Positions 4,139 to 25,375 of a stretch of 27,722 nt of DNA are shown here, piece by piece; positions within the stretch are counted from its first letter, which is position 1; each line of letters opens with the position of its first letter. The notes under the pieces were generated by a model that was not told where the DNA came from, did no database searches, and was given only the letters and a program-made list of their open reading frames with translations. Both the position numbers and the translations under genes were made by a program. Where the stretch lies: the IMG/VR virus record IMGVR_UViG_3300027607_000101, positions 1 to 27,722 of that record; one strand, 5' to 3'. Source of the stretch: a virus.

Positions 4139-4140
4139 TA

Positions 4141-7530: not shown

Positions 7531-7556
7531 TGAAGAACTCAAAGGAGAAGTCGATT

Positions 7557-9138: not shown

Positions 9139-9697
9139 AACCAACAAAAAGTATGACTGCATTGTCATTGACCCACCGTGGCCTTACCAACTACGAAAAA
9201 ATGACAAAACCCATCGCAATCGCATTCCCTACGAGCCAATGAAGCTTGAAGAAATCCTGGCGCTGCCCATCCCCGAATTGTGTAGTGAAGAGGGAACGGT
9301 GCTGTGGCTGTGGTTTACCAATAATCACATGATTGAAGCATCTAAATGTATCGAACATTGGGGATTTGAACTCAAAACTATTCTGACTTGGTTGAAAGTT
9401 AGTAAAGCCGGGAATCCTCATATTGGAGTGGGACACTGGCTGAGGAATTGCACCGAACATTGCATTCTAGCGACAAAGGGCAAGCCCAACAGCTTCAAGT
9501 ATTTAGGAACGCTAACCAATCAACCGACTGTTCTTCGCGCCCGTCGTCGAGAACATTCCCGCAAACCAGAGGAATTCTTCAAGCTAGTGGATAGCCTTTG
9601 CTCTGGCGAAAAGCTGGAGATGTTTGCCAGGGAGCGTCGTTCTGGGTGGGATACCTGGGGCGATGAAGTCGAGCTATTTGAGGAGGTTGCGTCGTGA
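9131..9697 (+). CDS. MT-A70 family DNA N6-adenine methyltransferase
   Basis: A 188-aa enzyme. The catalytic motif is DPPW at 14-17 (CIVIDPPWPYQLRK). It is followed by MKLEEILALPIPELCSEEGTVLWLWFTNNHM, FELKTILTWLKVSKAGNPHIGVGHWLRNCTEHCILATKG and, near the end, REHSRKPEEFFKLVD and MFARERRSGWDTWGDEV. These are all hallmarks of the MT-A70 family in the phage form, which methylates adenine N6 in DNA using S-adenosylmethionine. The size is normal for compact phage members. With the C5 methyltransferase upstream it makes a two-enzyme modification set, probably for anti-restriction. The target sequence cannot be read from the protein. ATG 9131 overlaps the previous gene by 8 bp. Confidence 0.93.
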   Translation: MIETNKKYDCIVIDPPWPYQLRKNDKTHRNRIPYEPMKLEEILALPIPELCSEEGTVLWLWFTNNHMIEASKCIEHWGFELKTILTWLKVSKAGNPHIGVGHWLRNCTEHCILATKGKPNSFKYLGTLTNQPTVLRARRREHSRKPEEFFKLVDSLCSGEKLEMFARERRSGWDTWGDEVELFEEVAS

Positions 9698-10371
9698 AGG
9701 AACGTCTCAAGGATCTCTGCCAAGAGTTCGATCGCCTGGTCGAGAAAGCAATCTCCGGGCAGCTTTCAAAGGCCCGCCACATGCGCGCAACCCTCGTCGA
9801 AATTTGGGATGGGGGCGGACACATCGCCCTCGGATACAACGGCTACAAAGCCTTTTGTGCAGGCGAGTTGAGCTGTGCTTACTTGTACTTTAACCACCAA
9901 AAAGTGATGGCCGAGGTCGAGTTATGTATTGGGGTTCCCCTCGGAACCTACCTCTATCGAGATACGGCGGCGCTTCGCAAGGGCATAAAGTTTGCACTCG
10001 GAGGACGAAATCCGCCCTGTGCTTGCGTCCTACCCCTCGCGCCAGACGACGATCGCCCCAACCCCGTTTCCGAGTTGCGAGCGCGCTGGCAGTTTGTTTG
10101 CGATCGCTCTGCCTCTTATCCCCCCTCAGCAGACGAACTCAAGAAGTTTTCCGCTGAGTATTTGCGCTCTCAGGGGGATTCTATCCCCAAAGCGATCGCC
10201 CCCAAACAAAACTTCTACCAGCAGAAAGCCAAGGAACTGGAGGCTCAGATTCGGGAGCTGCGGGAGGATCTTGAATCAACCATCGGATACGCAGAACGGT
10301 TGAGATCGCGCGTCAAGCAACTGGAGAAAATTAATTTTAAGTTGAGCCAGAAAGCGAAGCAAGCGAGTTAA
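9694..10371 (+). CDS. Hypothetical protein with C-terminal coiled coil, 225 aa
   Basis: GTG 9694 overlaps the MT-A70 stop (GTGA), which fixes the start. The N-terminal ~110 residues are compact (RHMRATLVEIWDGGGHIALG, YKAFCAGELSCAYLYFNHQKVMAEVELCIGVPLGTY). They resemble the small helical regions of phage and plasmid proteins related to ParB-like or DUF3102-type DNA binders, though I would not name a family. A Pro/Asp-rich link (PLAPDDDRPNP) follows. Residues ~170-220 form a clear coiled coil with heptad leucines (KELEAQIRELREDLESTIG, RLRSRVKQLEKINFKLSQ). It probably dimerises. Function unknown; position suggests a role near DNA modification or replication. Confidence 0.75.
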   Translation: MKERLKDLCQEFDRLVEKAISGQLSKARHMRATLVEIWDGGGHIALGYNGYKAFCAGELSCAYLYFNHQKVMAEVELCIGVPLGTYLYRDTAALRKGIKFALGGRNPPCACVLPLAPDDDRPNPVSELRARWQFVCDRSASYPPSADELKKFSAEYLRSQGDSIPKAIAPKQNFYQQKAKELEAQIRELREDLESTIGYAERLRSRVKQLEKINFKLSQKAKQAS

Positions 10372-11057: not shown

Positions 11058-12080
11058 ATGACAACATTAACCCCAACTCCCATCTTTAATCCCAATGGCA
11101 ATGATTCTGTCGAAAACCGTTCGATTTGGCTTGGCGACACCACAAACCTCATCAATCTCAACTCAATTCGGTTCAATTGGGCGATGGGACTTTATAACCA
11201 GATGCGCGAGAATTTCTGGATTCCAGCAAAGGTCGATTTGACCCCAGACATCAACGACTACAAAGAGCTAACTCCGGCCGATCGCCGTGCCTATAATGGC
11301 ATCCTCAGCTATCTTGTTTTCCTTGATTCGCTTCAGGTTTGTAATCTCCCTAACCTCCAAGCGTCCCTTACCGCACCGGAAATTCGCCTGTGCCTCACCG
11401 AGCAAACCTCACAAGAAGCGCTCCACGCTGCCAGCTACCAAGCCATGATTGAAGCAATTATCCCCGCACAGGAGAGGCAGGGGATTTACGACTACTGGAG
11501 AGGCGATGCCATCTTGAGGGAACGCTGCGAGGCGATCGCGAAGTCCTACCAGTCCTATATCGAAAATCCCACACCGGAGAACTACTTCACCGTCCTCGTT
11601 GCCGATTACATCATGGAAGGGTTGTATTTCTACAATGGCTTCGCAGCCTTCTTTTGCTGGGAATCTCGGAACCTCATGCCCGGTTCGGCGGACATGGTGA
11701 AGTACATAAAAAAAGACGAGGTAACGCATACCCGGCTGTTTCAGGAGCTAATCCCAGAAGCGATGGAAGTGTTTCCTCATTCGCGCGATCTCATTTACGA
11801 GATGTTCGATGCAGCGGTTACTCAGGAATGCCGGTGGACAAACCACATTACCAACAACGAGATTCTGGGGATCTCCGAGAAGAGTACGGAGCAGTATACG
11901 AAGTACCTGGCCAACCTCCGACTCAAGGCAATTGGGTTAGATGCGCTGTACGAAGGGGATTGGAAGAATCCCTACACTCACCTCGACCGGGCAACGCAAG
12001 ATTCAAAAGCGAACTTCTTTGAGGCAACGGTCACTGAGTACGGTATGTCCTCTGGCGTTGGCGGTTGGGATGCGTTTTAG
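11058..12080 (+). CDS. nrdB: Class I ribonucleotide reductase small (R2, beta) subunit
   Basis: A 340-aa di-metal protein that generates the radical used by the large subunit to reduce ribonucleotides. All six metal ligands can be placed: D90 (LVFLDS), E120 and H123 (EALHAASY), E187 (VADYIMEGL), and E221 with H224 (KKDEVTHTR). Y127, four residues after the ligand histidine, is the position of the radical tyrosine in the classical Fe-tyrosyl type. The C-terminal tail (GVGGWDAF) is the part that docks on the large subunit. No nrdA is in the window, so the subunit must pair with a host or distant phage partner. It is the last gene of the plus-strand block and is followed by a strong hairpin. An A-rich leader without clear Shine-Dalgarno precedes it. 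Confidence 0.95.
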   Translation: MTTLTPTPIFNPNGNDSVENRSIWLGDTTNLINLNSIRFNWAMGLYNQMRENFWIPAKVDLTPDINDYKELTPADRRAYNGILSYLVFLDSLQVCNLPNLQASLTAPEIRLCLTEQTSQEALHAASYQAMIEAIIPAQERQGIYDYWRGDAILRERCEAIAKSYQSYIENPTPENYFTVLVADYIMEGLYFYNGFAAFFCWESRNLMPGSADMVKYIKKDEVTHTRLFQELIPEAMEVFPHSRDLIYEMFDAAVTQECRWTNHITNNEILGISEKSTEQYTKYLANLRLKAIGLDALYEGDWKNPYTHLDRATQDSKANFFEATVTEYGMSSGVGGWDAF

Positions 12081-12169: not shown

Positions 12170-12239
12170 ACGTGTTTAAGTGATTACTTAAACACGTAAA
12201 TCAGTAAACCAGTAAATCAGTAATCAAGGAATTACTTGA
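12170..12239. repeat. Palindrome and 8-bp tandem repeats downstream of the RHH gene (candidate centromere half)
   Basis: Arms ACGTGTTTAAGT at 12170-12181 and ACTTAAACACGT at 12186-12197 form a 12-bp palindrome with a 4-base loop. Three 8-bp tandem units (ATCAGTAA, ACCAGTAA, ATCAGTAA) follow at 12200-12223, then a small TCAAG/CTTGA inverted repeat. The AAGTGATTACTT core recalls the repeats upstream of parA. Partition RHH proteins of this kind usually bind such repeats. Confidence 0.6.
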
Positions 12240-12240
12240 T

Positions 12241-12549
12241 TCAGTAATCATGTGCCTTCAGCCATTCCTCAACGGCTTCGCGCAAAATCACATTCATAGG
12301 GCGATTGCTATCAAAGGATGACCACTTCAAGCGTTTGTACTGAGCGTCAGACAGGTCAAAACTAATGCGATGAGGATATTTTTTACTCACACTTTTTCCC
12401 GTCCCCACCTCTTCCTTAGATTGTTCTGATGAGGGTTGACTTGTGGAAATCTCTGGATCGATACCACCTTGATTAATCCACTCATCCGCTTTCTGGGAAG
12501 GGATTTTTGATTTTGGGTTGCGAGCAATACGTCTCTTCTTATCTACCAT
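12241..12549 (-). CDS. Ribbon-helix-helix partition protein (ParB-like centromere binder)
   Basis: A 102-aa basic protein. The N-terminal half is Lys/Ser/Gln-rich and probably flexible (MVDKKRRIARNPKSKIPSQK). The C-terminal ~45 residues (PHRISFDLSDAQYKRLKWSS, then NRPMNVILREAVEEWL) have the beta strand followed by two helices of ribbon-helix-helix DNA binders. The gene overlaps the end of parA by 7 bp on the same strand. Small RHH proteins encoded directly after a short ParA are the classic type Ib partition partner: they bind the centromere, contact ParA and often repress the operon. Repeats on both sides of the pair fit that. An antitoxin role is less likely because no toxin gene adjoins. 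Confidence 0.8.
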   Translation of the reverse strand: MVDKKRRIARNPKSKIPSQKADEWINQGGIDPEISTSQPSSEQSKEEVGTGKSVSKKYPHRISFDLSDAQYKRLKWSSFDSNRPMNVILREAVEEWLKAHDY

Positions 12550-13181
12550 GATTTACTCTTCATCAATCTCAAAACTTCTCTGGCAAGCCCCTTTACCTCC
12601 TTTGATGCAGAACTGCTCGATGACATTTCCATAACGGTATAGCCAGATGAAGCTTCGCTAAAGGCTACACGCTGTGCAATTGCCTGTTTGAGCGTAGGAA
12701 TTTCATATTCAGACAAAGCCTCTTCAACATCACGACCAATAACTGTATTAGGAATTCTTCGGTTAATTACAAATGCAACTTGAATACTTGGCTTAAATGC
12801 TTGGGCTTCAGTAATCAGTTCGACCGTTTCCGATGCCGCCCATACATCATAGGAGCTGGGCTGGACTGGGATTAATACTAAATCGGCGGCAAGAATCGAA
12901 GTTCTTGCTAACGCGCTAACCCGTGGTGGGGTATCAATCACTACATGGTCGTAGTCTTTAGAAATGTCAGGTAAATCCCGGTGTAGGCTGTTCCGAGCCA
13001 TCCCAATGACGGTGAAGGGAGATTTGCCTTCCCTTGCTTCTACCCATCCTTGAACGCTCCCTTGAGGATCGGCATCAACTACCAAGACCCGCTTCTTCGA
13101 TCTGGCAATCTCATGAGCTAAATGTATGGTTAAAGTAGATTTCCCACTTCCACCCTTTAGCGAACTCAGGGTTATTATCAT
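12543..13181 (-). CDS. parA: ParA family partition ATPase
   Basis: A 212-aa protein from ATG 13181; an in-frame TTG six bases earlier is less likely. The deviant Walker A KGGSGKST sits at about residues 9-16 (MIITLSSLKGGSGKSTLTIH). Walker A' is VLVVDADPQGSVQGW, Walker B is DYDHVVIDTPPRVS, and LVLIPVQPSSYDVWAA follows. The short length without an N-terminal HTH places it in the type Ib group, which moves plasmid copies over the nucleoid and leaves repression to the small partner protein. That partner is encoded immediately downstream with overlap. The gene shows that the element is, or was, a stably inherited low-copy plasmid. A pair of near-identical 32-bp repeats lies directly upstream and probably includes its operator. 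Confidence 0.95.
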   Translation of the reverse strand: MIITLSSLKGGSGKSTLTIHLAHEIARSKKRVLVVDADPQGSVQGWVEAREGKSPFTVIGMARNSLHRDLPDISKDYDHVVIDTPPRVSALARTSILAADLVLIPVQPSSYDVWAASETVELITEAQAFKPSIQVAFVINRRIPNTVIGRDVEEALSEYEIPTLKQAIAQRVAFSEASSGYTVMEMSSSSSASKEVKGLAREVLRLMKSKSW

Positions 13182-13183
13182 TT

Positions 13184-13303
13184 TCAAGTGTTTACTTGCT
13201 CAAGTAATCACTTGAAAATAGACCAACTTGAATGCACGATCAAGTATTTCTGTGAATGTGTATCTCAGTATTCAAGTGTTTACTTGCTCAAGTAATTACT
13301 TGA
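13184..13303. repeat. Two near-identical 32-bp repeats upstream of parA (candidate operator/centromere)
   Basis: The repeat at 13184-13215 and the one at 13272-13303 differ at a single base. Each contains a TCAAGTGTTTACTTG palindrome-like half followed by CTCAAGTAAT and ACTTGA, so each has several AAGT/ACTT half-sites. Further relics (CAACTTGAAT, GATCAAGTATT) lie between them. They sit where the parA promoter and parS-type centromere are expected. Confidence 0.75.
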
Positions 13304-13524
13304 ATAAGTGTTTATGCAAGCACGTACTTTAATGCCAACTCAGAGCGAGATCCCGTGGTGCGGAACTTCTTGAAAAGCAGGCTCTGCAAGAGTTTAAGGA
13401 TGTTCTGGTCAATCTGACCAGAACATCCCCTGATGCCTTTGAGTATTTGTCTAGGGTTTCCAAGCGTTGGATTGGACTCGTTCAAGTGAAGGCGGGAAAC
13501 GGACTTTCAAACCTCTCCTGGGCG
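13304..13524. other. Non-coding gap with a 14-bp perfect hairpin at 13398-13428
   Basis: No convincing gene. GGATGTTCTGGTCA at 13398-13411 pairs with 13415-13428 across a 3-base loop. On the minus strand it lies about 100 bp after the 219-aa gene and could be its terminator, although the following bases are only modestly T-rich. A plus-strand frame open from 13333 to 13662 (read as ELLEKQALQEFKDVLVNL and onward) has no start codon before position 13447 and may be a gene remnant. Confidence 0.5.
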
Positions 13525-14184
13525 CTACTTTTCGCACTCATATTCAATCCAGGTGCAATTCGCGAGGCCGCCTTTAACATGCGCCTTTGCCTTTACGACA
13601 GGCTCGTCCTCTGCCAGACTAATGAAATCGTTGATGCCACGTTCGGTCTCCAGCGACGTTAGCAGGGACTCGGTCTCTAACACGGTAATACGCACGTCGG
13701 GTGGTGACATCAAGCCGCGCTCCAAAAAAAACCGCGTTGGATGGCTTTTCATCTCCAGCACATGGCTTTCGTTACTGTCCTCCTCCAACCGGTGGATCAA
13801 CGCGAAGACATCTTCCATCGGTACATCCGATATCGCCTGCAATTTGCCGACAACAGCACTTTCCTGATTCTTCTTGGGACATTGAATCGTGATGCGCCCG
13901 CATCTCAGCTTCAGAGGCTTCTTGATGTGAATCGTGATGGCAGCCTCGTCCTCGCGCATAGCCGCTGAAAACTTATCGAGTCGTGCTGGGGTGAGAAGCT
14001 GGGCTCGCAGTTCGTCGCGATGTTGTATTTTGATTTCGGCATCCATCGGGATAACAATGTCATTTGAAAGAAAGTACCCGCGGGGATTGACAAACAGCGC
14101 CGCTACAGCGCTTTCATCTTCTTGAGCCTTGATCATCAATTCGGTCAGTTCACGCAACGACATCTCAGTAATTGTACGCATCAT
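13525..14184 (-). CDS. 219-aa protein with two nitrile-hydratase-leader-like (NHLP-like) segments and a GG-Cys tail
   Basis: A strong AAAGGAGGA at 14187-14195 precedes ATG 14184, so the gene is real. Residues 10-53 (LRELTELMIKAQEDESAVAA, then FVNPRGYFLSNDIVIPMDAE) follow the pattern of nitrile-hydratase-type RiPP leaders: K-A-x-EDE, L-x-x-x-P, then I-x-I-P and an acidic/beta end. Residues 125-170 (DVFALIHRLEEDSNESHVLE, then HPTRFFLERGLMSPPDVRIT) repeat the same pattern. The C-terminus has GG at 205-206 followed by LANCTWIEYECEK with two cysteines, reminiscent of a leader/core boundary. No maturation enzyme (YcaO, lanthionine synthetase, radical SAM) or exporter lies in the window. The protein could instead be a structural or regulatory protein that only resembles such leaders. 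The resemblance is from memory. Confidence 0.75.
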   Translation of the reverse strand: MMRTITEMSLRELTELMIKAQEDESAVAALFVNPRGYFLSNDIVIPMDAEIKIQHRDELRAQLLTPARLDKFSAAMREDEAAITIHIKKPLKLRCGRITIQCPKKNQESAVVGKLQAISDVPMEDVFALIHRLEEDSNESHVLEMKSHPTRFFLERGLMSPPDVRITVLETESLLTSLETERGINDFISLAEDEPVVKAKAHVKGGLANCTWIEYECEK

Positions 14185-14225
14185 AGTCCTCCTTTAGACT
14201 AAGATTTCAGTTATTTTGGTTTTCA

Positions 14226-14275
14226 CGAACAAATATGCTGAAATCCAAATGAGATAGGAGATACATATTCGTTCG
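14226..14275. promoter_or_regulatory. Inverted repeat upstream of the 219-aa gene (candidate operator)
   Basis: CGAACAAATATG at 14226-14237 and CATATTCGTTCG at 14264-14275 form 12-bp arms with one mismatch, 26 bases apart. They lie 40-90 bp upstream of the start of the minus-strand 219-aa gene, where a promoter and operator would be expected. A dimeric repressor could bind each arm. No regulator gene is adjacent. Confidence 0.45.
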
Positions 14276-14361
14276 CAAATTAGCTCTTAGAGAGTAACAG
14301 TCTGGCGGCGAATGATACCGCGAGGGTGTTGTTCTAACCCTCTTCTGTCACTCGTTAGTGC

Positions 14362-14452
14362 TACAGCAGTGTCAAATGAGTTGTGAAAATTTCTCTAGGC
14401 GCAGTAGGGCTTTCAGCGATCTAGAATTTACAACTCATTTATGACCGCTGTA
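14362..14452. mobile_element. MITE-like element with imperfect terminal inverted repeats and TA flanks
   Basis: The left end TACAGCAGTGTCAAATGAG, continuing TTGTG, is mirrored at the right end by CAACTCATTTATGACCGCTG, then TA. The 11-bp core AAATGAGTTGT (14374-14384) and ACAACTCATTT (14430-14440) is perfect. TACAGC(A/G)GT begins and ends the element, and TA dinucleotides sit at both borders as expected for IS630/Tc1-type target duplication. The element is about 90 bp and carries no gene. Assignment to the IS630 group is inference. Confidence 0.55.
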
Positions 14453-14472
14453 CAAGTATATGTAGCTCACTT

Positions 14473-14510
14473 TTTCTTTGACAGTACCCATGTGGGTACT
14501 GTCAAAGAAA
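14473..14510. terminator. 38-bp palindrome: 17-bp perfect arms with a 4-base loop
   Basis: TTTCTTTGACAGTACCC at 14473-14489 is the exact complement of 14494-14510 around ATGT. The arms are AT-rich at the base, and the hairpin ends in runs of T or A on either strand, so it can act as a bidirectional terminator. It could also be a binding site or a closed insertion remnant. No gene ends immediately beside it. Confidence 0.55.
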
Positions 14511-14921
14511 TTTGATTTTCAAAGCTATCCTCAAAATCTCACTCACATTTGTGCCTACCTACTTACCTCGATCCTAAACATTGATAGATAACTTTCTAAT
14601 TGTGTTCTTAGCCAAGGGTTAGTAGTCTGTCTAACGACCAAATTCACCAGGCGATGGCAAGCAACTATCAAATTTTCGCAAGTTGCTCGGCTAACGCTCC
14701 GGCGCAACGCATTGTTATGCTGTACTTCTTGTATGCCCAGGAAAGGCTTACTGAAACTTCTCCATGACACAGTGACGAAGACATTCTTGCAGCACAACTC
14801 GTTCATCCCCAATTCTCTCTTTAAAAACAAGTACTCACTTAACTAAGTGAGTAAGTATTTCAGTGATTCTTTGCTTCAGTAAGTGTGCAAATACTGAAGG
14901 TTGAATTTTTTTTCGTTAGGG
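14511..14921. other. Region without a supported gene; 22-bp palindrome at 14832-14853
   Basis: A 91-residue minus-strand frame at 14555-14830 is open but Cys/Arg/Asn-rich, lacks motifs, and looks like a translation of a repeat-type sequence. TACTCACTTA and its complement form a palindrome with a 2-base loop at 14832-14853, immediately upstream of that frame. It shares AAGT/ACTT character with the par repeats. Small imperfect hairpins occur around 14640-14720. Confidence 0.4.
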
Positions 14922-15035
14922 CTAATCGCCAGGGATTTTTGCGATTCGGAAAATTTCACCAACAATCCGAATTACCACAACGGCAAATTGTAGGTATGGC
15001 AAATAGCGCCTCAACAGTCGAGTAAGTCGTTTCAT
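14922..15035 (-). CDS. Possible 37-aa basic membrane peptide
   Basis: Read on the minus strand, ATG 15035 follows GGAG 9 bases upstream. The peptide starts MKRLTRLLRRYLPYLQFAV and ends in VVIRIVGEIFRIAKIPGD. It has a basic N-terminus followed by a hydrophobic stretch long enough to enter a membrane. Such peptides can be type I toxins or regulators, but no antitoxin RNA was identified and the frame is short. The frame is open to 15125 with less plausible upstream ATG. Low-confidence call. Confidence 0.35.
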   Translation of the reverse strand: MKRLTRLLRRYLPYLQFAVVVIRIVGEIFRIAKIPGD

Positions 15036-15263
15036 TTTTCTTGCTCCGTTGTGTGGCTTAGCAGATAAATTTCTTCCTTTCCATCCTCTATGAGATGCCT
15101 GAGAATGCCAACCAGAAAACCTCATGAAATCAACTATGTATCACATGGAATCTTGTATTTCCTCTCTAAACAAATGAACCGCTTTCCTTGCCTTCTTGAT
15201 CGGTGTTTTTTGTTGTTGAAGAGCTATGGTAGGGATGCAAAATACTATTATTACCAAGGCTGA

Positions 15264-18212
15264 CTACGAGGCTTGCAAACCTTCCGTTCTTTCAGTTCTT
15301 TCATCACGCTGTTGCCACTTCTCAAAAATCTCATCCCGCCCATCATCAATAACGGGCGCACCATAAACCCGCTGCTGTTCGCCCCGCTTGCCGCGCTTAT
15401 AGAGAAACGGCATTTTTAGCCCCAGCTTCGACAGCAGCAACTGGGCCACCGCCATTGGCGAATCCTTGTGATTAATCGTCACGCCTAAAATCGCTTTCAC
15501 CTCCCAAGCGTGAGCCTTCACAAAGTCTGCCCACTCTGCCAGCTTCTGACTCGTAAACGTCGCATCCTTCACCCAGAACCGCTCGATCTCAAACAACTCC
15601 AAAACCTTAACCTGAGCTGAAAGCGCCCTGGAATTAAAATCCGGCTTCCAGATCGCGCCCTCGCCCCGATCCAATTGAGAGCGCAACACCTTCGTATCCC
15701 GCGCCTTCAAAAATTGATCGCCAATTGTTAAGTAATAGTGGAGCTGTAGCTGACCATACCAACCCTTATCATCGCGCTTAACCACCTCTGGGGTAATCTC
15801 AATTTGGTATCGTCGCGAAAGTGTTCCTTTTCGCTCCTCATTGCGCTCAGCTTCAGTCTTGCTGCGCTTTTCTTTTAAAAGCTCCAAACTGCGATCGTCG
15901 GGGTTATTGCTGGCGGACACTTCTTGGCAATGTCGCTCGTAGTTGCCGTTTTTGGTTGCCTTCAGCTCTTCCTGAATCTCCTGTTGCTCGGCTTCAAGCT
16001 GTTCGGCTGCCTTAATAATTTGATGCCCTTCCCGCTTCAGCCCCTCTACAATTGTCTGGCGATAGCAGCGCATCGAGTGGTTAATCGCCACCGCTCGCTT
16101 GGCCCAAGTCTTGAGGCTTTCGGGCTGGAAATCGAGGTCGAGGTCTTCAAACTCTGACTCTCGGAGCAGCGCAATGTTCGCCCGACATAATTTATGTTGA
16201 CTCCTGAGCAACGACTTAATAGACGTGCTGCCATTACCGATACGACTGCCATTAAACCCTTGCTCCCTGGCCCACAAATACCGAGGGACGTATTCTCGCA
16301 CTCGCGCTAAAGCTTGCCGAACTGAATCAGCCGCCTGCACTCCCTGAGCGATGCCCCACACGCCTGTAAAGTGTCTTTGAATATCGATGCTGACACCCGT
16401 TTCCACCGAGGGCGAAGCCAGCACAACATCATAGTGAGGAAGAATCTCATTGAGCTTATTCATACAGCCGCAAGCGGGATGATTGGGATTGCTCACTGTT
16501 TGACTGTCAATGCGAAGAATCTTCTTGTTGGGAAAGCGCTTTTTGAGGTAACACTCCAAGTTGTAGGTTCCCCAATTGCTCTTCATCTTCTGGGCGCTGC
16601 AACAGACGAAGGGAACGCCGCCGCGATGGATATCCTCAACCAAGGCGGCGACCAGCGAGCTAGGATTGCTGCCCTCATAAACCGTGACTTGCTTGCCCGA
16701 AGTGGGCCGCCAATCGTTAACAATCACATGGGGACGAATGGGGAAACCGACCAGCGATCGCACATAGTCAATGGCGATGTCAGACAGATCGGCATCGGAC
16801 AGAAACACCTTGCCCTCATCGCTATTCAACACATTCTGAATCAAGGCTTTGAAGTTGCGGAGAATCGACACTCGCTCTTTGCGGCAGGTGTTGGAATTGA
16901 GCAGATGCCAGAAAACTTGCTCGGCCTCGTCAATAATGACAACCGCATCGTGCCAGTCTTCGGGGTCGAACTGCGCTTGAGAGTTGGGATGGAGGGAATC
17001 AACGCAGAGTCCGATTCCCAAGACACCTCGCGTGGGAGAATTTCTCATCGCCGTTACGTAATCAATGCCGAAGCGCTGGCAGAGCGCCTCGCCCAATTGA
17101 GTGCGATGGACGAGAACTAAAACCCTCTGCCCGTTCCGAATCGCTTGCACGACTTGCTGGCTTAACCACTCGGTCTTGCCCGTATCTTTGGGCGATTTAA
17201 CGGCAATCAATTGGGCCGAAGGGGGGAGGGGAGCGACGAGGTAGCGCAAGCAGAGTTTGAGATCTGGAGGATAAAATAGCCTGCCGTACTGCCGTGCTTG
17301 CCAGGTTTCGAGGGAGAGTGCATCCCGGACAACTTGCTCTAGGAACTCTCGCCCCAACGCCATCACCAGATCGTCCACGCCCTTAGATGAGACATTCCAA
17401 CTTAGAACGCGGGGAGCGCATCCCAGACGCGAGACTAATTGCGCCGTCTTTGTAATGGCATGATTGACATTGGCAATGGTCTTGGGCTTCTCATCGCGGT
17501 CGAAGCAGAAATAGATGTCCCGCTCGCCCTTGGCCAAAACCTCCAACTGCGGAATCAGTCGCGGCAAACCGGCAACCTGACCATCAAACCCCCGACGCTG
17601 GCGATAGCCGTTAAATACTCCAGGAAGAGCCACCGCAGCAAAGCCCGCACTCAACAAGGCTCCCGCTTTCTTCGCCCCTTCAGTAATAAAGATGGGAATC
17701 TCAGGATGCTTGATAATCCACTCCCAAAAGCTGACAGGCTGCTGGCGATCGCGCAACCGTAAGGCCAGGGGAGAGAGATAGCGCTTGACTCCATAGCGAG
17801 CGGCAATTTTATCCCAGATGCGCTCTGGCACTCGCAGGGCAAAGAGTTCGGTTTGAGTTTGAGCGGGATGCTCGTATTTGATGGGCTTGCCTTTTTTGCG
17901 ATCGCGCCGGGGACAATCGGGTTTAAAGCATCCCCATTCGGATTCTTCAAAGGCGAGCAGATCGATACCGCTACACCACCAGCCACCTTGTTCGACATGG
18001 CGATATTTTCTGAGCCACTTGTCTCGAATTCGCCCATCATTTCGCCGCTCGCTGTCGGGAAGGGCGTAGATTAATCGCTCGATTGCGGCATCTCCGTCTA
18101 GAGATGTAACATTTGCTTGAATGATATCGGGGTCTACAGCGCTCTGTCGCCACTCCTGGAAGTGCTTTGGCAAGATAGACCCCACATTTTGGGGAATTTG
18201 CCGATAATTCAC
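15264..18212 (-). CDS. Cyanobacterial plasmid replication protein, CyRepA1-like (toprim plus helicase)
   Basis: A 982-aa protein starting at GTG 18212. Residues ~70-150 (GGWWCSGIDLLAFEESEWGC, FKPDCPRRDRKKGKPIKYEH) are the conserved N-terminal region of DUF3854 proteins. The toprim-like domain contains IFITEGAKKAGALLSAGFAA (TEGAKK about 177-182) and YFCFDRDEKP (FDRD 237-240). The helicase part has Walker A SPKDTGKT at 340-347, Walker B VVIIDEAE at 424-431, and a later ASPSVETGVSIDIQ with RQALARVREYVPR as motif VI. A charged coiled coil follows (EQLEAEQQEIQEELKATKNG). This order is that of the Rep proteins of cyanobacterial plasmids such as pSYSA, which combine primase-like and helicase functions to start replication. 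The origin is expected upstream, in the repeat-rich gap. Its presence implies autonomous replication. Confidence 0.88.
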   Translation of the reverse strand: MNYRQIPQNVGSILPKHFQEWRQSAVDPDIIQANVTSLDGDAAIERLIYALPDSERRNDGRIRDKWLRKYRHVEQGGWWCSGIDLLAFEESEWGCFKPDCPRRDRKKGKPIKYEHPAQTQTELFALRVPERIWDKIAARYGVKRYLSPLALRLRDRQQPVSFWEWIIKHPEIPIFITEGAKKAGALLSAGFAAVALPGVFNGYRQRRGFDGQVAGLPRLIPQLEVLAKGERDIYFCFDRDEKPKTIANVNHAITKTAQLVSRLGCAPRVLSWNVSSKGVDDLVMALGREFLEQVVRDALSLETWQARQYGRLFYPPDLKLCLRYLVAPLPPSAQLIAVKSPKDTGKTEWLSQQVVQAIRNGQRVLVLVHRTQLGEALCQRFGIDYVTAMRNSPTRGVLGIGLCVDSLHPNSQAQFDPEDWHDAVVIIDEAEQVFWHLLNSNTCRKERVSILRNFKALIQNVLNSDEGKVFLSDADLSDIAIDYVRSLVGFPIRPHVIVNDWRPTSGKQVTVYEGSNPSSLVAALVEDIHRGGVPFVCCSAQKMKSNWGTYNLECYLKKRFPNKKILRIDSQTVSNPNHPACGCMNKLNEILPHYDVVLASPSVETGVSIDIQRHFTGVWGIAQGVQAADSVRQALARVREYVPRYLWAREQGFNGSRIGNGSTSIKSLLRSQHKLCRANIALLRESEFEDLDLDFQPESLKTWAKRAVAINHSMRCYRQTIVEGLKREGHQIIKAAEQLEAEQQEIQEELKATKNGNYERHCQEVSASNNPDDRSLELLKEKRSKTEAERNEERKGTLSRRYQIEITPEVVKRDDKGWYGQLQLHYYLTIGDQFLKARDTKVLRSQLDRGEGAIWKPDFNSRALSAQVKVLELFEIERFWVKDATFTSQKLAEWADFVKAHAWEVKAILGVTINHKDSPMAVAQLLLSKLGLKMPFLYKRGKRGEQQRVYGAPVIDDGRDEIFEKWQQRDERTERTEGLQAS

Positions 18213-18271
18213 TCTAAGGTTGCCTCTTATTCCGTTTTTGAAGCGAATAAACGGAATCGAGAGAGCGGGAC

Positions 18272-18470
18272 TTGAGGAATTGAAGCGACCAAGGCTAGAA
18301 TAGAGCTGGTCGGCTAGAATCCCTTTGGAAAACTCAATTTCGTGTCAAGCGACCAAACTTAAAGCACGAACTGAGATTTGGAGTTTCTACCCGTTCCGTT
18401 TATTCAATTTGAATGAGATGTTTATCTCACTTAAGACCAGCTTAAGGCAATCCGCCCGAAGCTGGTCTTT
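18272..18470 (+). ncRNA. Candidate antisense RNA opposite the rep leader (promoter 18272-18301, hairpin end 18433-18470)
   Basis: On the plus strand, TTGAGG (18272-18277) and TAGAAT (18296-18301) are 18 bases apart, a plausible sigma-70 promoter with start near 18308. A hairpin AAGACCAGCTT (18433-18443) with its complement at 18459-18469 and following T-rich bases could end the transcript, giving about 160 nt. It would be antisense to any rep 5' leader. This is prediction only. Confidence 0.35.
18433..18470 (+). terminator. Intrinsic-terminator-like hairpin upstream of the recombinase gene
   Basis: Eleven-base perfect arms (AAGACCAGCTT and complement) surround a 15-base loop and are followed by TAAATTT. 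It is about 95 bp upstream of the recombinase start. It could stop a transcript coming from the rep-side promoter, or act as an attenuator for the recombinase. Confidence 0.5.
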
Positions 18471-18564
18471 AAATTTCAAGGTTTGATACAAAAAAGGCGC
18501 TCTGGCTCTTCTGAGTGCGGTAGAGTTGGCGATACGAAGATTGCCAGAGGTGGGTGCGAGAGCG

Positions 18565-19227
18565 ATGAAAATAGATCGCTACGGTCAGGCCAAAATCCTG
18601 ACGCAGGAGGAGATTCAGAAGCTCTTCTCTCAAGGATTGACCAGCTCCAGAGATCGCACGCTCTTTGCAGTGATGCTCTACACGGCTTGTCGGGTTAGCG
18701 AAACCGTGACGCTCAAGACGAAAGATGTTTACGATCGCGCCGGAAACGTCCGCACCGAAATCATCGTCAGAAAGCCTCACACAAAAGGGAAACTGGCAAC
18801 TCGCACGATTCCCGCGATTGAAGAGCTGCGCGTCATTTTAAGCTCCTACAAGCCCGCGCGCAGGACAGGGTATCTGTTCCCCGGCAAAAACCAGCGGGAC
18901 TATCTGCACCCGGACTCGGTGGGCTGGCTGTTGCGGCGAGCTTGCGATCGCATTGGTTTGGAGGGAGTCAGCACCCATTCGTTCCGCCGCACGGCGCTCA
19001 CGCAAATGAGTCGGGCGGGAATTCCCCTGCGAACAATTCAGGAAATTAGCGGCCATCGCTCTCTCGACGAACTTTACAAATATCTCGAAGTGCTGCCGGA
19101 GGAAATCCGCGGAGCCACTGCCTCGCTGTCGATGCTGGCTCCATTGGGGACGGCGAACTCCGTAAAACCCTCTTTAGACGAAGTAAGTAGAGAGGGGCTA
19201 TCGCCCGTGCGAAAAGAGGGAGAATGA
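18565..19227 (+). CDS. Tyrosine recombinase/integrase, catalytic domain only
   Basis: The start is taken as ATG 18565, giving about 220 aa beginning MKIDRYGQAKILTQEEIQKL; an upstream TTG extension adds only 13 residues. The catalytic residues are visible: R43 in TACRVSE, a lysine in HTKGKLATR (about 74-76), H138 and R141 in HSFRRTAL, H164 in ISGHRSL, and the nucleophile tyrosine in ELYKYLEV (171 or 173). The protein lacks the N-terminal arm-binding and most of the core-binding domain of full integrases. Similar short recombinases are frequent in cyanobacterial plasmids and phages, where they may integrate, excise or resolve multimers. It stands beside the repeat-rich gap, which may contain its site. 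Role as integrase versus dimer resolvase is open. Confidence 0.88.
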   Translation: MKIDRYGQAKILTQEEIQKLFSQGLTSSRDRTLFAVMLYTACRVSETVTLKTKDVYDRAGNVRTEIIVRKPHTKGKLATRTIPAIEELRVILSSYKPARRTGYLFPGKNQRDYLHPDSVGWLLRRACDRIGLEGVSTHSFRRTALTQMSRAGIPLRTIQEISGHRSLDELYKYLEVLPEEIRGATASLSMLAPLGTANSVKPSLDEVSREGLSPVRKEGE

Positions 19228-19239
19228 TTAGTACAAGGG

Positions 19240-19330
19240 TGCTATACTGCAATTGACCAGGTGAATATTGAGTTGCAATTTCTGGACGCGAAACTCAAAG
19301 ATTGTTAGCCCCTAAATTTGGGGCTTTTTT
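19240..19330 (+). ncRNA. Candidate small RNA with extended -10 promoter and strong terminator
   Basis: TGCTATACT (19240-19248) is an extended -10 element. About 75 bases downstream AGCCCC/GGGGCT arms (19307-19312 and 19320-19325) around TAAATTT are followed by six T. There is no ORF with a start between them. The transcript would run from about 19255 to 19330. It could also just be the recombinase terminator with a chance promoter. Confidence 0.4.
19307..19330 (+). terminator. Rho-independent terminator after the recombinase gene
   Basis: A GC-rich stem (AGCCCC with GGGGCT) with a 7-base loop and an uninterrupted T run. It is the clearest intrinsic terminator in the window and lies 80 bp after the recombinase stop. 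Confidence 0.85.
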
Positions 19331-19706
19331 CATGCCCTACGCGATCGCGCATATAAAGGTTTTGAATTTTACGAACTTATACTACATTGAGTTACACGCA
19401 ATACGAGCATTGTTTAGCAATGCCCCTTTTGGTAGAAAATCGCATATTTTTGTCGCCTATGGAGCGATCGCGGGTTGGTTTTGTCACCTGAAGGACATCA
19501 TGTTCGTCGGTTAGATTCTTGTACAAGTTTCAACACTGGGGCGCTCAGGCTGAGTGAAACTTCCTTGCGCCAAGTTGTCGCCAACATGAGGCGATCGCTC
19601 AAATACTCAGATCTACGCATTTGAAACTTGTACGGAAATCAAAGAATTGTACCAACAGCATTCTCAAGAATCAGTACAATTGAATTAGTGATAACTGGCA
19701 AGAATC
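19331..19706. other. Non-coding gap with a 13-bp inverted repeat 87 bases apart
   Basis: No supported gene. GTACAAGTTTCAA at 19521-19533 is complementary to TTGAAACTTGTAC at 19621-19633. Between them are further GAAACTT and GGCGCTCAGGCTGAG elements. The borders resemble a MITE or a regulatory double site. A 70-aa plus-strand frame at 19302-19514 overlaps the terminator and has no ribosome-binding site, so it is not called. Confidence 0.45.
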
Positions 19707-19865
19707 ATGATTTCACGAGATCGCCTGTTTGACGCTCCGGGAGGCGTAGACCTCATTCAACAGCACTTGCGGCTGTTCGACATCATCGTCATTGTTCGAG
19801 CTGTGGTGCTGGGATATCTGTTGATGCTGCTGGTGGGTGTGACATTCGGCCCATCAATGCCGTAG
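19707..19865 (+). CDS. Possible 52-aa single-pass membrane protein
   Basis: ATG 19707 to TAG 19865 encodes 52 residues with an amphipathic first half (MISRDRLFDAPGGVDLIQQH) and a clear hydrophobic segment at about 26-46 (IIVIVRAVVLGYLLMLLVGV). No good Shine-Dalgarno is present. It lies 32 bp before the small terminase gene on the same strand. Phage morphogenesis clusters often carry such small holin-like proteins, but the assignment is uncertain. Confidence 0.4.
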   Translation: MISRDRLFDAPGGVDLIQQHLRLFDIIVIVRAVVLGYLLMLLVGVTFGPSMP

Positions 19866-19897
19866 ATATTGTCGATTGCGAAGCGTGGAGAGAAGGA

Positions 19898-20548
19898 TTG
19901 GCTCGCAGTAAATATACTCCCGAACGAGTTGAGAAGATTGTTGAGGCGATCGCCACTAACGGCGGTGATGAGTCGGGCTGGGTAGCTGGCAAGATTTCGA
20001 GTACAACTTTCTATGATTGGATTGCCAAATATCCGGAGTTTTCGGAGTCGATTGAGCGCGCGCGAGAAAAGTTCAAGAAGAATGCCCCCCTGCATCAGAA
20101 AAAATTAGCAAAGGAACGACTTACCGAAGTTCTAGAAGATGGGCAGACCATCACCTGGAAAACAACTCGGACGAGGCGACTGAATCATTGCACCCCCAAT
20201 GGCAAACTCAAATGGTATCAAGAGGAAACGGTTAGTGAAACTCATGAGGAGAATCGAGGCGTTCCTCAATGGGCCATAGACCGAATTCTGCCCAAAGCTC
20301 CACCTGATATTGAAAGTGCGATCGCCCTCCTAGAACAGCATGGTTACATTGTTACGCTCCCCACCGACCAAATCGCCGAGTTTGTCGCCCAAGCGAATGC
20401 TCAAGCTGGCGAAGGCGGCAACGGCAATCTCGGACTCACAGAGGAAGCGGCCAACACAATCCGAGCCAGAATCCTCGGTGTTTCGGAAGATGCCTCCGAT
20501 CCTGATGCCCTACCAGGTGAGATGGGCGAGGGACATGAGTCCGGTTAA
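19898..20548 (+). CDS. terS: Terminase small subunit-like protein
   Basis: The frame starts at TTG 19898 with GGAG 7 bases upstream (19887-19890) and encodes 216 aa. The first ~70 residues (YTPERVEKIVEAIATNGGDE, SGWVAGKISSTTFYDWIAKY, PEFSESIERAREKF) form the helix-turn-helix domain used by small terminases to recognise packaging DNA. A long linker with basic patches and a low-complexity C-terminus (AQANAQAGEGGNGNLG) follow. It overlaps the large terminase gene by up to about 60 bp, which is the normal neighbourhood. HTH plus position support the call; a phage transposase-like HTH protein is a lesser alternative. Confidence 0.75.
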   Translation: MARSKYTPERVEKIVEAIATNGGDESGWVAGKISSTTFYDWIAKYPEFSESIERAREKFKKNAPLHQKKLAKERLTEVLEDGQTITWKTTRTRRLNHCTPNGKLKWYQEETVSETHEENRGVPQWAIDRILPKAPPDIESAIALLEQHGYIVTLPTDQIAEFVAQANAQAGEGGNGNLGLTEEAANTIRARILGVSEDASDPDALPGEMGEGHESG

Positions 20549-21776
20549 GGTTTGGGAGAAGTCAAGAAGAATCGGAGCCAGTTGGGCCGATGCAGCGATC
20601 GCCGCGCTGGATGCCGCCATTGTTGGGGGGTGCGACACCTACTATGTTGGCTATAACCGCGAGATGGCCGAGCAATATATTGAGGATGTGGCGTACTGGG
20701 CCAAGGGATATCAAATTGCCGCCGAGCGATTGAGCGATCGCGTTATTGAAGACGAAGACCAAGCGATTCTGGTCTATCGCGTTCGCTTTGCCTCCGGACA
20801 TAAGGTTGCAGCGCTCTCCTCTCGGCCTTCCAACCTGCGAGCGAAGAAGGGCAAGGTCGTTATTGACGAAGCCGCATTTCACGACGATCTAGAGGCACTT
20901 CGCAAGGCGGCAATGGCAATTTTGGCTTGGGGCGGTCAAGTCAGAATTATCTCCACGCACAACGGTATTGCCAACTCGTTTAATAAACTCTGCGAGGCAA
21001 TTCGGAAAGGAGACGAGGATTTTTCGCTGCATACCACGCCGTTGGATGAAGCGATCGCGGATGGATTGTACGCGCGAATTTGCTTGGTCAATGGCTGGGA
21101 ATATTCTGAGGACTTAGAGCAGCGATGGCGCGATCGCCTTTGGAAAGATTACGGTCGGGGCGCATTGGAAGAACTGGGTTGCATTCCCAACTGCGAGCAA
21201 GGGGGAATTGTCAGTTCGGATTGGATTCAACGCTATCGAGTCCCGCCCGACAGTTTTACTCGCATCGTGCAATCGTGGGACACGGCACAGGAGAAAGGTA
21301 AGGGTAGCGCTTGCTGGGCTTGTACCACTTGGGGCGAGCTGGAGAACAAGTACTACCTACTCGAAGCCTACACCCAGAAACACAACTATCCCAGCGGCAA
21401 AGCAGCCGTCATTAGCTTGGCCGGGAAATGGAAGCCCAATGCGATCTTGATTGAGAAGAAGTCAACGGGTGCGAGCTTGTTACAGGAACTTCCCTCAGAG
21501 ATTGGAACTTCCCTGATTGGCATTGTGCCGGAAGGGGATAAGGTGACGCGGCTGAATGTGGAATCGACAGCTTACGAGGCGGGTCGGGTTTACCATCCGG
21601 AGTCAGCTTCTTGGCTGGCCGAGTACGAGCAAGTGCTGCTCAACTTTCCCAGTAGCGCGATCGCTGACCCAGTGGATAGCACTTCTCAGTTTTTGAGGTG
21701 GGCGAGAACGAATTCACTTTCGTTTGAGTTTGTCTCAACAGGCGTTCGTAGGGCAGGGAGCGATTCACTTTGGTGA
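20490..21776 (+). CDS. terL: Large terminase subunit (Mu gp28-like)
   Basis: About 428 aa from ATG 20490; ATG 20505 is an alternative and the frame is open further upstream. The start (LMPYQVRWARDMSPVKVWEK, SRRIGASWADAA) matches Mu-type packaging ATPases. In these the usual P-loop is replaced by KSRRIGAS (24-31). Walker B is VVIDEAAF (D126, E127). RIISTHNG is the coupling motif. The C-terminal nuclease has RIVQSWDTAQEKGKGS (D264), a central ILIEKKSTGASLLQEL and a final DPVDSTSQFLRWAR, the three acidic sites of the RNase-H-like fold. The protein packages DNA into the prohead and cuts it. It overlaps terS. Downstream the portal gene is convergent on the other strand, unlike the usual order. Confidence 0.93.
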   Translation: MPPILMPYQVRWARDMSPVKVWEKSRRIGASWADAAIAALDAAIVGGCDTYYVGYNREMAEQYIEDVAYWAKGYQIAAERLSDRVIEDEDQAILVYRVRFASGHKVAALSSRPSNLRAKKGKVVIDEAAFHDDLEALRKAAMAILAWGGQVRIISTHNGIANSFNKLCEAIRKGDEDFSLHTTPLDEAIADGLYARICLVNGWEYSEDLEQRWRDRLWKDYGRGALEELGCIPNCEQGGIVSSDWIQRYRVPPDSFTRIVQSWDTAQEKGKGSACWACTTWGELENKYYLLEAYTQKHNYPSGKAAVISLAGKWKPNAILIEKKSTGASLLQELPSEIGTSLIGIVPEGDKVTRLNVESTAYEAGRVYHPESASWLAEYEQVLLNFPSSAIADPVDSTSQFLRWARTNSLSFEFVSTGVRRAGSDSLW

Positions 21777-21873: not shown

Positions 21874-23637
21874 TCAGTTATGGCGCTTGAGCCAATCTGC
21901 ACCCACTTCGGCGATCGCTCCCAACATAGTAAGTGGCATTTCCCACAAGTAGGCTTCTCTCGCCTCATCCACAGAAGCCCATCCCACCATCAATTTCCGC
22001 TCGTCCAACTCCTGAGTTTCGGGGTTTAGCTGTTCGACAACAAAGATTTTCCCAGCATTGTCTGGGTTCTCGATCGAGTCTGGGTGAATGAAGGCTCTGA
22101 TGCTTTTACCTTTCTCTTTTTTCCCCCCGCGCAGATGTCCGTAACCGCAGTGCAGTTTCTTCGCATGGGCCGAACTGGGAAACCGCACCCAGCCCGGTAA
22201 ATGCGTCACGCCAAACTTCAACCCATTCCAGGTAATGACTCTTTGCGGGATTGCCCTGAAGTTGACCGTCTTTTCCGAGAGGTCGAGATTGCCTTCATCG
22301 GGGCTTTCCCCTTCGGGTTCGGAGTTCGGTTCGGGAGCAAACGCCTGTCCTAGTCTATCCTGAAGTCCTGGCTCTTTTTCCTCTTCCTCCAGGGGCAGTC
22401 CGTAAATCTCCTCAATGTACTCCCGACTGGGCTTCAACCCCATGAAACTGACAATCGACGATTCCCTCGTTGCTCGTTGAGACAGATCTTCTTGTTCCTT
22501 CAGTTCGGGGAATGCTCGCCAAATCTTAGGCGGTTTAGCATCGGGAAAATTCAGTTCGGTAAACCATCGACATAGCGTATGATTGAGCGTTTCGCTGAGC
22601 AAATCGGCATCGGCTTTGGAGATGTCAACTCGAATCTCGTTACCCACCTGATCTCTAGCCCTCGAACCTCCGTCCCCTTGCTGATCGGTGCTGCCCGTCT
22701 CCCCCAGAACGCATTTGGAAATTTCTCGGTCAAAATAGTCCATCAAGCCGGTGTAGAGGGCGGTTCCGTCGCCAGAGGGCTGGCTGAATTCAATCTCTGC
22801 CTCTTTTGGAATGGCGATTCCTGTCTCCTGAGAAAAGGCTTTGAACGCTTCAAGGATAGAACTCCGGATGTTGGCTTGTCCGGCTGGGTATTTGCCAACC
22901 AGCGTCGGAGAGCCGTAGCGATCGGCATAGGAGAGGGCAAAACGAGCTAAGTGGCGTTTGAAGTAAACCGGCCAGAATAATCGGCTGGCGAGTCCCCAAC
23001 CGTAAGGATTGCCATCTTCGGCCCAGAACTGGTGAACGATAAACTTTCGCGCCGGGAGTGGCTCGCCGTCGAACAGGTTATTGGGAGTCAGCAAGCGCAT
23101 TTCGTATCCCGGCGTGGGCATTCCTCGCTTATCGGTGTTGAGAGAGAAAATGAATCGGTCTTGCGATCGCGACTTGAGGGCGGCCGGGACGATGAGCTTC
23201 CCCCGTTTTTCCCAAACAATCTCGGAGGTGGCCCAACCATAGAAGATCGCCATCAACAAGAAAAAACTGGCCGAGTCGAATCCCTTCTCAATGTCAATAA
23301 TGCAGCGGTTGTTTGCCCGGCTGGGGGTGGGAGATAGATTGTCAAGAGCTTCGGTTAGAGCGTCGGACGCTTTGCGGTCGATTGCTCTCGTCCCCCCAGG
23401 CTCGACAATGCGCTCTCGCTTGACAACGGCGAGGATGCGCTTCTGGAGGACGGCAAACGCATGGCAGTCCTTGAGAATATCGCGATAAACCTTGTATCCC
23501 CGTCCTTCCGAGCGCGTCTTGAGCGTGTCGTCATCGGGAGTTAGGCGATTGCCGCCATAGACGGGATACGCGCCAATGCGAGGATCGAGGGCGGGAATGG
23601 CAATCTCGGAGTAAAGCGAGCGGGTTGATAGCGACAT
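21874..23637 (-). CDS. DUF935/Mu gp29-like portal protein fused to an InPase-like C-terminal domain
   Basis: A 587-aa protein. The first ~420 residues match Mu-type portal proteins: SEGRGYKVYRDILKDCHAFA, FDSASFFLLMAIFYGWATSE, FIVHQFWAEDGNPYGWGLAS, PTLVGKYPAGQANI, MDYFDREISKCVLGETGSTD and SETLNHTLCRWFTELNFPDA. This protein forms the dodecameric entry ring through which DNA is packed. After an acidic linker (about 421-455), residues ~460-587 form a separate domain: KSIRAFIHPDSIENPDNAGK, IFVVEQLNPETQELDERKLM, VGWASVDEAREAYLWEM. In phage head proteins a C-terminal domain of this look is called inorganic-pyrophosphatase-like. Its fusion to a portal is unusual. ATG 23637 lies 4 bp after the stop of the upstream 87-aa gene. 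Confidence 0.88.
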   Translation of the reverse strand: MSLSTRSLYSEIAIPALDPRIGAYPVYGGNRLTPDDDTLKTRSEGRGYKVYRDILKDCHAFAVLQKRILAVVKRERIVEPGGTRAIDRKASDALTEALDNLSPTPSRANNRCIIDIEKGFDSASFFLLMAIFYGWATSEIVWEKRGKLIVPAALKSRSQDRFIFSLNTDKRGMPTPGYEMRLLTPNNLFDGEPLPARKFIVHQFWAEDGNPYGWGLASRLFWPVYFKRHLARFALSYADRYGSPTLVGKYPAGQANIRSSILEAFKAFSQETGIAIPKEAEIEFSQPSGDGTALYTGLMDYFDREISKCVLGETGSTDQQGDGGSRARDQVGNEIRVDISKADADLLSETLNHTLCRWFTELNFPDAKPPKIWRAFPELKEQEDLSQRATRESSIVSFMGLKPSREYIEEIYGLPLEEEEKEPGLQDRLGQAFAPEPNSEPEGESPDEGNLDLSEKTVNFRAIPQRVITWNGLKFGVTHLPGWVRFPSSAHAKKLHCGYGHLRGGKKEKGKSIRAFIHPDSIENPDNAGKIFVVEQLNPETQELDERKLMVGWASVDEAREAYLWEMPLTMLGAIAEVGADWLKRHN

Positions 23638-23944: not shown

Positions 23945-24376
23945 GTGACGTATATTACGGCTCAAGAAGTATTCGATCGATTCAGCCCGCAGGAGTTTGT
24001 CGATCTGACCAACCTAGAGTCTCCCAGTTCGACCTCCGTTCGCGAAAGTGCCCTAGAAATTGCGATCGTCGATGCATCTTCGGAAATCGACTCCTACCTG
24101 TGCGGGGCTTATCCCTTACCCCTAACGGAAGTCCCCAGTATTTTGAAGCGTAAGGCCTGCGATTTGGTGCGCTACTACCTCGAATATAAGGGGGTTATCC
24201 GCGAGCAAACCCAGAAGAAGCGGGATGAGGCGATCGCTTGGTTGGAGGAGATCGCTGCTGGGACGAGAAAGTTGGGACTGAGCGGCGTTGGCAATCCCCT
24301 CCCCTCCTACGCAGATCGCGTGGATTGGGTTGCCAACGAGCGAGTTTTTTCAGCTCAAACGCTGTGCGATTACTAG
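23945..24376 (+). CDS. Mu gp36-like head/tail joining protein (DUF1320 type)
   Basis: The GTG start at 23945 gives 143 aa. The order TYITAQEVFDRFSPQEFVDL, then IAIVDASSEIDSYLCGAYPL, PLTEVPSILKRKACDLVRYY and AIAWLEEIAAGTRKLGL is the recognisable pattern of phage gp36/DUF1320 proteins, which join head to tail. Size is normal (about 140 aa). The region after residue 115 (GVGNPLPSYADRVDWVANER) resembles the usual short C-terminal tail. It stands on the plus strand while portal, virion-morphogenesis and gp37-like genes are on the minus strand. No clear Shine-Dalgarno was seen at the GTG. Confidence 0.85.
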   Translation: MTYITAQEVFDRFSPQEFVDLTNLESPSSTSVRESALEIAIVDASSEIDSYLCGAYPLPLTEVPSILKRKACDLVRYYLEYKGVIREQTQKKRDEAIAWLEEIAAGTRKLGLSGVGNPLPSYADRVDWVANERVFSAQTLCDY

Positions 24377-24389
24377 AGGCAAATTTTCA

Positions 24390-24884
24390 ATGACCATCAC
24401 TGAGAGCAAGCGAAAGATCGGACAACTCGAATCAGAAATCGAGAAGTTGACAGCATGGCTGAATGCGAATCGAGCAACTGCTTTAGTCGGGGGGAGAGAG
24501 GGCGAGAACTCCCCACAGACGCTTGAATCTGCCCTGGAGATAGCCAGCAACGTTAGCGCCAAGAAAGAGCAAATCGCCTCGGTTGAAGGGACGCTAACCT
24601 CGCTCAGGAGTCAACGAGATCGGGAAACAGCAGTCCTAGAGGAGAAACAGCGCCAAACTCGCTCGGAGCGAGGTTTCTCGGAGCTTAAGAAGCAGGCTCA
24701 AGCGGCTAACGCCGCCTTGGAGGTTGCCGCAAAAGCGATCGCGGCAGTTGAAGATGCAGCAGCGGCGATTGCGAGCGAGTACAAGCAGACCTACGGACGG
24801 TTGCCCTATCAAAATCTCAGAGATCGAGACAGTCGCCTCCCTCATTTTGAAATCCACGCTAATCTCGTTCGAGCCGTAGATTGA
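24390..24884 (+). CDS. Coiled-coil protein, 164 aa, unknown function
   Basis: ATG 24390 follows a GAGG about 11 bases upstream. The frame extends upstream, but only inside the gp36-like gene. The protein is almost entirely helical and charged, with heptad-like runs (KRKIGQLESEIEKLTAWLNA, SAKKEQIASVEGTLTSLRSQ, AANAALEVAAKAIAAVEDAA). It ends in a short basic part (YGRLPYQNLRDRDSRLPHFE). It is probably a structural or scaffolding protein. No homology is claimed. Its 3' end overlaps by 26 bp the 3' end of the convergent virion-morphogenesis gene. Confidence 0.65.
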   Translation: MTITESKRKIGQLESEIEKLTAWLNANRATALVGGREGENSPQTLESALEIASNVSAKKEQIASVEGTLTSLRSQRDRETAVLEEKQRQTRSERGFSELKKQAQAANAALEVAAKAIAAVEDAAAAIASEYKQTYGRLPYQNLRDRDSRLPHFEIHANLVRAVD

Positions 24885-25371: not shown

Positions 25372-25375
25372 TGCA

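Follow-up and report, generated by a model that had tools for sequence, protein, structure and literature searches.

Plasmid replication and partition genes beside phage packaging genes on a cyanobacterial DNA fragment, probably part of a phage-plasmid

Phage-plasmids of the P1 type combine a plasmid Rep and a partition system with separate phage replication and packaging genes, while VP882, VHML and phiHAP-1 are linear plasmid prophages. The IMG/VR virus record IMGVR_UViG_3300027607_000101, analysed here over its whole 27,722 bases (the window), carries a CyRepA1 initiator, a partition (par) locus and a short tyrosine recombinase contiguously at 12.2-19.2 kb, flanked left and right by phage modules (Table 1). 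The best single explanation is that it is part of a cyanobacterial phage-plasmid, which we consider probable. Such elements are known in cyanobacteria but hardly described. According to the available part of its description, cyanophage Mic1 has ParA, ParB and a parS-like palindrome, is likened to P1 and N15 and is proposed to persist as a plasmid (PMC7156551). Glacial viromes have yielded putative phage-plasmids (PMC4490671), a 2025 report describes a phage-like plasmid from Microcystis (PMC12510456), and the word 'cyanobacteria' is absent from a review of phage-plasmids (PMC11652158). Mic1 differs from the window in being a siphovirus with ParA and ParB and a palindromic parS, and the same part of its description makes no mention of CyRepA1 (PMC7156551).

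A similar combination of genes is found on pPSE7367.01 of Pseudanabaena sp. PCC 7367 (NC_019690), a finished circular plasmid of 328 kb. It has homologues of the window CyRepA1, ParA, short tyrosine recombinase, TerS, Mu-type portal and gp36, with portal and terminase on opposite strands, as in the window. It also has an annotated Gp37 and a TerL, the latter unmatched by the window TerL. The plasmid differs from the window in carrying conjugation and phycobilisome genes and in having its phage genes scattered over about 80 kb. At NC_019690.1 233757-238507, 245931-249350, 301065-302312 and 313547-315601, a Mu-type head block (Gp37, DUF1320, DUF2190), CyRepA1, portal and terminase lie among phycobilisome genes. 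pPSE7367.01 is a candidate phage-plasmid or relic, and no description of it as a phage-plasmid was found in the literature searched; nor was one found there for CyRepA1 combined with a pAQ5-type par locus and terminase and portal genes. On the lack of precedent, the original prediction, which knew of no well-described cyanobacterial example, was too strong, because Mic1 (PMC7156551), the Microcystis plasmid (PMC12510456) and pPSE7367.01 exist.

The par locus resembles that of the pAQ5-type plasmids of Picosynechococcus PCC 7002, 7003 and 7117, on which no terminase or portal is annotated. The window ParA, 214 residues long and without an N-terminal helix-turn-helix (HTH), matches ParF (4dzz) along residues 4-209 (E=8e-28) and is 82.5% identical to ParA of pAQ5 (PCC 7002); the copies in PCC 7003 and 7117 are equally close. 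The gene for its ribbon-helix-helix (RHH) partner overlaps parA by 7 bp, the same overlap as in pAQ5, and the product is 60% identical to the ParA-linked 103-residue protein encoded at the same place on that plasmid. The fold predicted for the RHH protein from its single sequence was of low confidence (predicted local distance difference test score 63) and uninformative.

Around the operon, the tetramers ACTT, AAGT and ACGT recur at exact 8-bp steps, as 4-bp boxes with 4-bp spacers. They form four runs of four or five boxes, starting at 12170, 13186, 13274 and 14829; 0.03 runs of three or more are expected at a period of 8, and one such run in total was seen at the remaining periods of 5-15. 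In pAQ5, the PCC 7003 plasmid and Leptolyngbya BL0902 unnamed5, the homologous operons have the same arrays on either side, and in the 2.73 Mb of other loci scanned, runs of four or more were confined to the par loci of three plasmids that have this ParA. The parH centromere likewise consists of tetramer boxes separated by AT-rich spacers (PMC7308502). Judged from sequence, pAQ5 and the PCC 7003 plasmid carry orthologues of the locus. Since ATPase, partner and form of centromere agree, we assign the window locus to the type Ib (ParF/ParG-type) segrosomes, with binding of the RHH protein to the boxes as a prediction. For the 219-residue protein encoded between par and rep, Pfam and PHROG profile searches gave no family match. 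Between that gene and rep, at 14473-14510, lies a perfect inverted repeat of 18 nt with a 2-nt loop, a candidate operator or terminator.

The initiator is a full-length CyRepA1 protein, 57% identical to a plasmid Rep across its length. In a tree of 34 proteins it is sister to the Rep of Chondrocystis plasmid1 (support 100/99) and falls outside the clades with the chromosomal copies sampled. The maintenance of pSYSA as a separate replicon was shown to depend on CyRepA1 (PMC9978351). On the PCC 7003 plasmid there is likewise a CyRepA1, only 25% identical to that of the window. Among the linear plasmid prophages, VP882 and VHML have a Rep with a CyRepA1-like helicase region (25-26%), and VP882 and phiHAP-1 a small ParA that is 41-45% identical to the window ParA; these elements differ in having Vibrio and Halomonas hosts, and no protelomerase was recognised in the window. 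The possibility that the protein is a mere phage helicase, as in Lbo402-yong5, was rejected: DUF3854 is absent there, and the window protein matches a plasmid Rep at 57% identity over its length. Upstream of the gene, at 18206-18470, three TTCCGTTT(A/T)T-like copies in both orientations were seen by eye, and a palindrome lies at 18433-18469; together these are possible iterons or a copy-control region.

The third plasmid module, the recombinase, is short for its family (233 residues), and its best matches in the plasmid collection come from cyanobacterial plasmids, at 57-65% identity over 84-95% of the length. Its type bears on whether the record might hold two separate elements, a prophage having inserted by chance into a small CyRepA1/ParA plasmid. 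CyRepA1 plasmids of only 5-11 kb exist and the core is a single 7-kb block, both in favour of this reading. Between the two borders of the core, however, no direct or att-like repeat above chance was found, which gives no support to a simple site-specific insertion; the recombinase is of plasmid type, and the genes searched included no recognisable phage-type integrase or Mu transposase. We regard this explanation as very unlikely. The original prediction had named the CyRepA1-like Rep, ParA with its RHH partner, candidate centromere repeats, tyrosine recombinase and TerS/TerL pair, and was right in coordinates and identities.

On the left, the first 12 kb form a compact, rightward co-directional phage replication block, which also holds an HNH gene listed between those for DnaB and the DndC/PAPS-reductase-like protein. 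On the right, the terminase genes are followed by Mu-type head genes (Portal_Mu, gp36 and gpG); we claim no membership of the Mu-like phages, and neither MuA nor MuB was recognised among the genes searched within the fragment. TerS and TerL overlap in different frames, by about 170-210 bp in the window (20340-20548) and in the related viral contigs L002 (9899-10098), L003 (4608-4780) and L008 (9944-10140); both protein ends are conserved in these relatives, making this a long conserved dual-coding stretch. In L003, open reading frames (ORFs) at 6512-10291, between terminase and portal, resemble by eye type III CRISPR RAMP proteins and are accompanied by a PAPS-reductase-like gene. Near the right end, the ORF at 26123-27094 joins a sigma-70 region 2 to an IS1-type zinc ribbon and an HTH; it is possibly a late-gene sigma factor with an unusual C-terminus.

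Table 1. Features of the window, with coordinates, strand and supporting match or context.
Feature	Position	Strand	Basis
UvsW-like DEAD helicase (phage replication/repair)	562-2121	+	ResIII/Helicase_C; PHROG 16, E=8.5e-106
g2153, g3303 and g3794, three overlapping small genes	2153-4138	+	Putative replisome organiser/helicase-loader region, function inferred
DnaB-like replicative helicase	4135-4971	+	DnaB_C, E=2.3e-56; PHROG 19
DndC/PAPS-reductase-like phage gene	6199-7530	+	PHROG 12882, E=1.4e-141; phage homologues about 46%
C5 cytosine and MT-A70 adenine methyltransferases	7781-9697	+	PF00145, PF05063; PHROG 363 and 359
Ribonucleotide reductase small subunit	11058-12080	+	Ribonuc_red_sm, E=4e-67; PHROG 86
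par box array, 4 boxes, 8-bp period	12170-12197		Downstream of RHH gene
RHH, putative centromere-binding partner (ParG-like)	12241-12549	-	Weak by profile; Arc-like PHROG 3180
ParA, small ParF-type (type Ib) partition ATPase	12543-13187	-	NF041546, 257 bits (cut-off 180)
par box arrays (4 + 5 boxes), candidate centromere/operator	13186-13309		Upstream of parA
219-residue gene between par and rep	13525-14184	-	ORF only
par box array, 4 boxes	14829-14856		Period-8 box scan
CyRepA1 plasmid replication initiator, full length (DUF3854 + helicase)	15264-18212	-	NF042913, 488 bits (cut-off 200); PF12965
Short tyrosine recombinase, plasmid type (candidate multimer resolution)	18526-19227	+	PF00589
TerS	19898-20548	+	PHROG 309/1482; Sf6_terminase weak
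TerL	20340-21776	+	Terminase_6C; PHROG 5573/38/2; relatives in viral contigs
Mu-type portal, C-terminal InPase-like domain	21874-23637	- (opposite to TerL)	Portal_Mu, E=3e-94
Mu gp36-type head-tail adaptor	23945-24376	+	PF07030, E=1.6e-29; PHROG 195
Mu gpG-type virion morphogenesis/tail completion protein	24859-25452	-	PF05069, E=1.1e-19; PHROG 26
Mu gp37-like protein, tentative	25813-26223	-	Weak; homologue directly after gp36 in G299:C34, adjoins gp36 in G327

A plasmid initiator, a partition system, and packaging and head genes, the marks of a phage-plasmid, thus lie on the same record if its assembly is correct. The same picture could come from a metagenomic chimera in which assembly fused a cyanobacterial plasmid with fragments of at least one cyanophage: the record is single, the strand switches in its head region, and when viral contigs were scanned for exact copies of the TerL-portal junction and of the par repeat, neither turned up in a second contig. 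Searching viral contigs for patterns of CyRepA1 (single and aligned), of the portal and of ParA also gave no relatives. A near-DNA search against phages returned one match, of 179 bp, which overlaps the C5 methyltransferase gene, and against plasmids there was no match to the window. We nevertheless give a chimera only a slight chance. The octamer GCGATCGC (HIP1), a hallmark of cyanobacterial genomes, occurs in 34 copies, as against about one in first-order shuffles, and is enriched in every segment (left 11, par-rep 3, recombinase-TerL 11, right 9). All segments bear the cyanobacterial mark, and the host is therefore cyanobacterial. The finished plasmid pPSE7367.01 has a similar gene combination. 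The window shares its TerS-TerL family with L002, L003, L008 and G007, and the portal with the InPase-like tail with G007 and G299:C34 (41% identity over 597 residues to the latter). In the viral contig G007, TerS, TerL and this portal family adjoin on one strand, with gp36 next; in G005 and G006, homologues of g3303 and/or g3794 share a contig with TerS-TerL, and g3794 also matches L008 (E=2e-8). These linkages argue that the left and right parts of the window derive from one kind of cyanophage.

Several observations weigh against a phage-plasmid. The record is classed as linear, so it is probably a fragment, and no 12-mer is common to both ends (within 600 bases). The head genes alternate in strand (TerL +, portal -, gp36 +, gpG -), whereas those of relatives including G007 and G299:C34 are co-directional. 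Between gpG and gp36 the window has no capsid or protease gene, at a place where G299:C34 has ORFs read, by position and size, as capsid and protease; within the 27.7-kb fragment, open at both ends, no major capsid protein (MCP), tail or lysis genes were recognised. No convincing pair of inverted repeats was found flanking the head-gene inversion. DUF3854 occurs in none of the 19 related viral contigs, and G299:C34 is without a CyRepA1 match. In a co-occurrence screen of 386 Cyanobacteriota genomes, with the matches listed judged by eye, CyRepA1 shared a contig with Terminase_6C or Portal_Mu, among those matches, only on the chromosome-scale G327:C2 and G406:C1, far apart. CyRepA1 homologues are also common on chromosomes (80 of 145 strains; PMC10899382); CyRepA1 alone is therefore weak evidence of a replicon, and for the same reason its grouping with a plasmid Rep in the tree matters. 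Lastly, pPSE7367.01 gave no match to the G299:C34 tail proteins and has no recognisable tail genes, and its layout looks like that of a plasmid with captured phage genes.

With that plasmid as both precedent and warning, the window may be a functional phage-plasmid or else a plasmid that has taken up phage genes. The latter, the main rival, holds that the record comes from a cyanobacterial plasmid whose phage genes were captured and rearranged and which replicates and partitions as a plasmid but no longer makes particles, as may be true of pPSE7367.01, where similar genes are dispersed among phycobilisome and conjugation genes. The mixed strands of the window head genes, and an MCP and protease that are not where relatives have them, would fit such a history. 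The window is, however, dense with phage genes, its main ORFs are all open, its left 12 kb are compact, and no host-type cargo was seen. Because of this gene density, the intact frames and the compact phage replication block, we favour a working phage-plasmid and hold captured genes to be unlikely, though worth serious consideration. There is also a small chance that the window and pPSE7367.01 stand for a class of cyanobacterial CyRepA1/ParA plasmids that have terminase, portal and head genes of their own, in dispersed, mixed-strand order, and that move in capsids, perhaps with the tails of a helper phage, as a plasmid form of capsid-forming satellite. As for the original prediction of a phage-plasmid, its plasmid half has become much stronger through the par orthology, the arrays and the plasmid-type Rep and recombinase; one circular replicon that makes particles would be harder to reconcile with a linear fragment and rearranged head genes. 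The portal and head-joining genes said to follow the terminase are present, but their mixed strands, with the portal opposite to TerL, went unmentioned, as did the linear, fragmentary nature of the virus record.

As a phage-plasmid, the element would form one circular replicon with two modes of replication. Between infections, CyRepA1 would initiate replication of a low-copy circle, which the ParF-type ParA and its RHH partner, acting on the 8-bp-spaced boxes at about 12.2-14.9 kb, would segregate; the short tyrosine recombinase would probably resolve multimers. Upon induction, the separate module of helicase, putative loader, DnaB and nucleotide- and DNA-modifying enzymes would amplify the DNA, and TerS and TerL would then package it via the Mu-type portal into heads encoded beyond the window. 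The element would work alike to the P1-type phage-plasmids, although the P1 host is unrelated and the full phage gene set is known only for P1.

Plasmids are numerous in cyanobacterial genomes, and little is known of how they move. Packaging-mediated plasmid transfer in cyanobacteria becomes testable with an element whose Rep and centromere are defined and which has a terminase of its own, and the 8-bp box array provides a usable sequence signature for a partition family common to pAQ5-type plasmids and this phage-like element.

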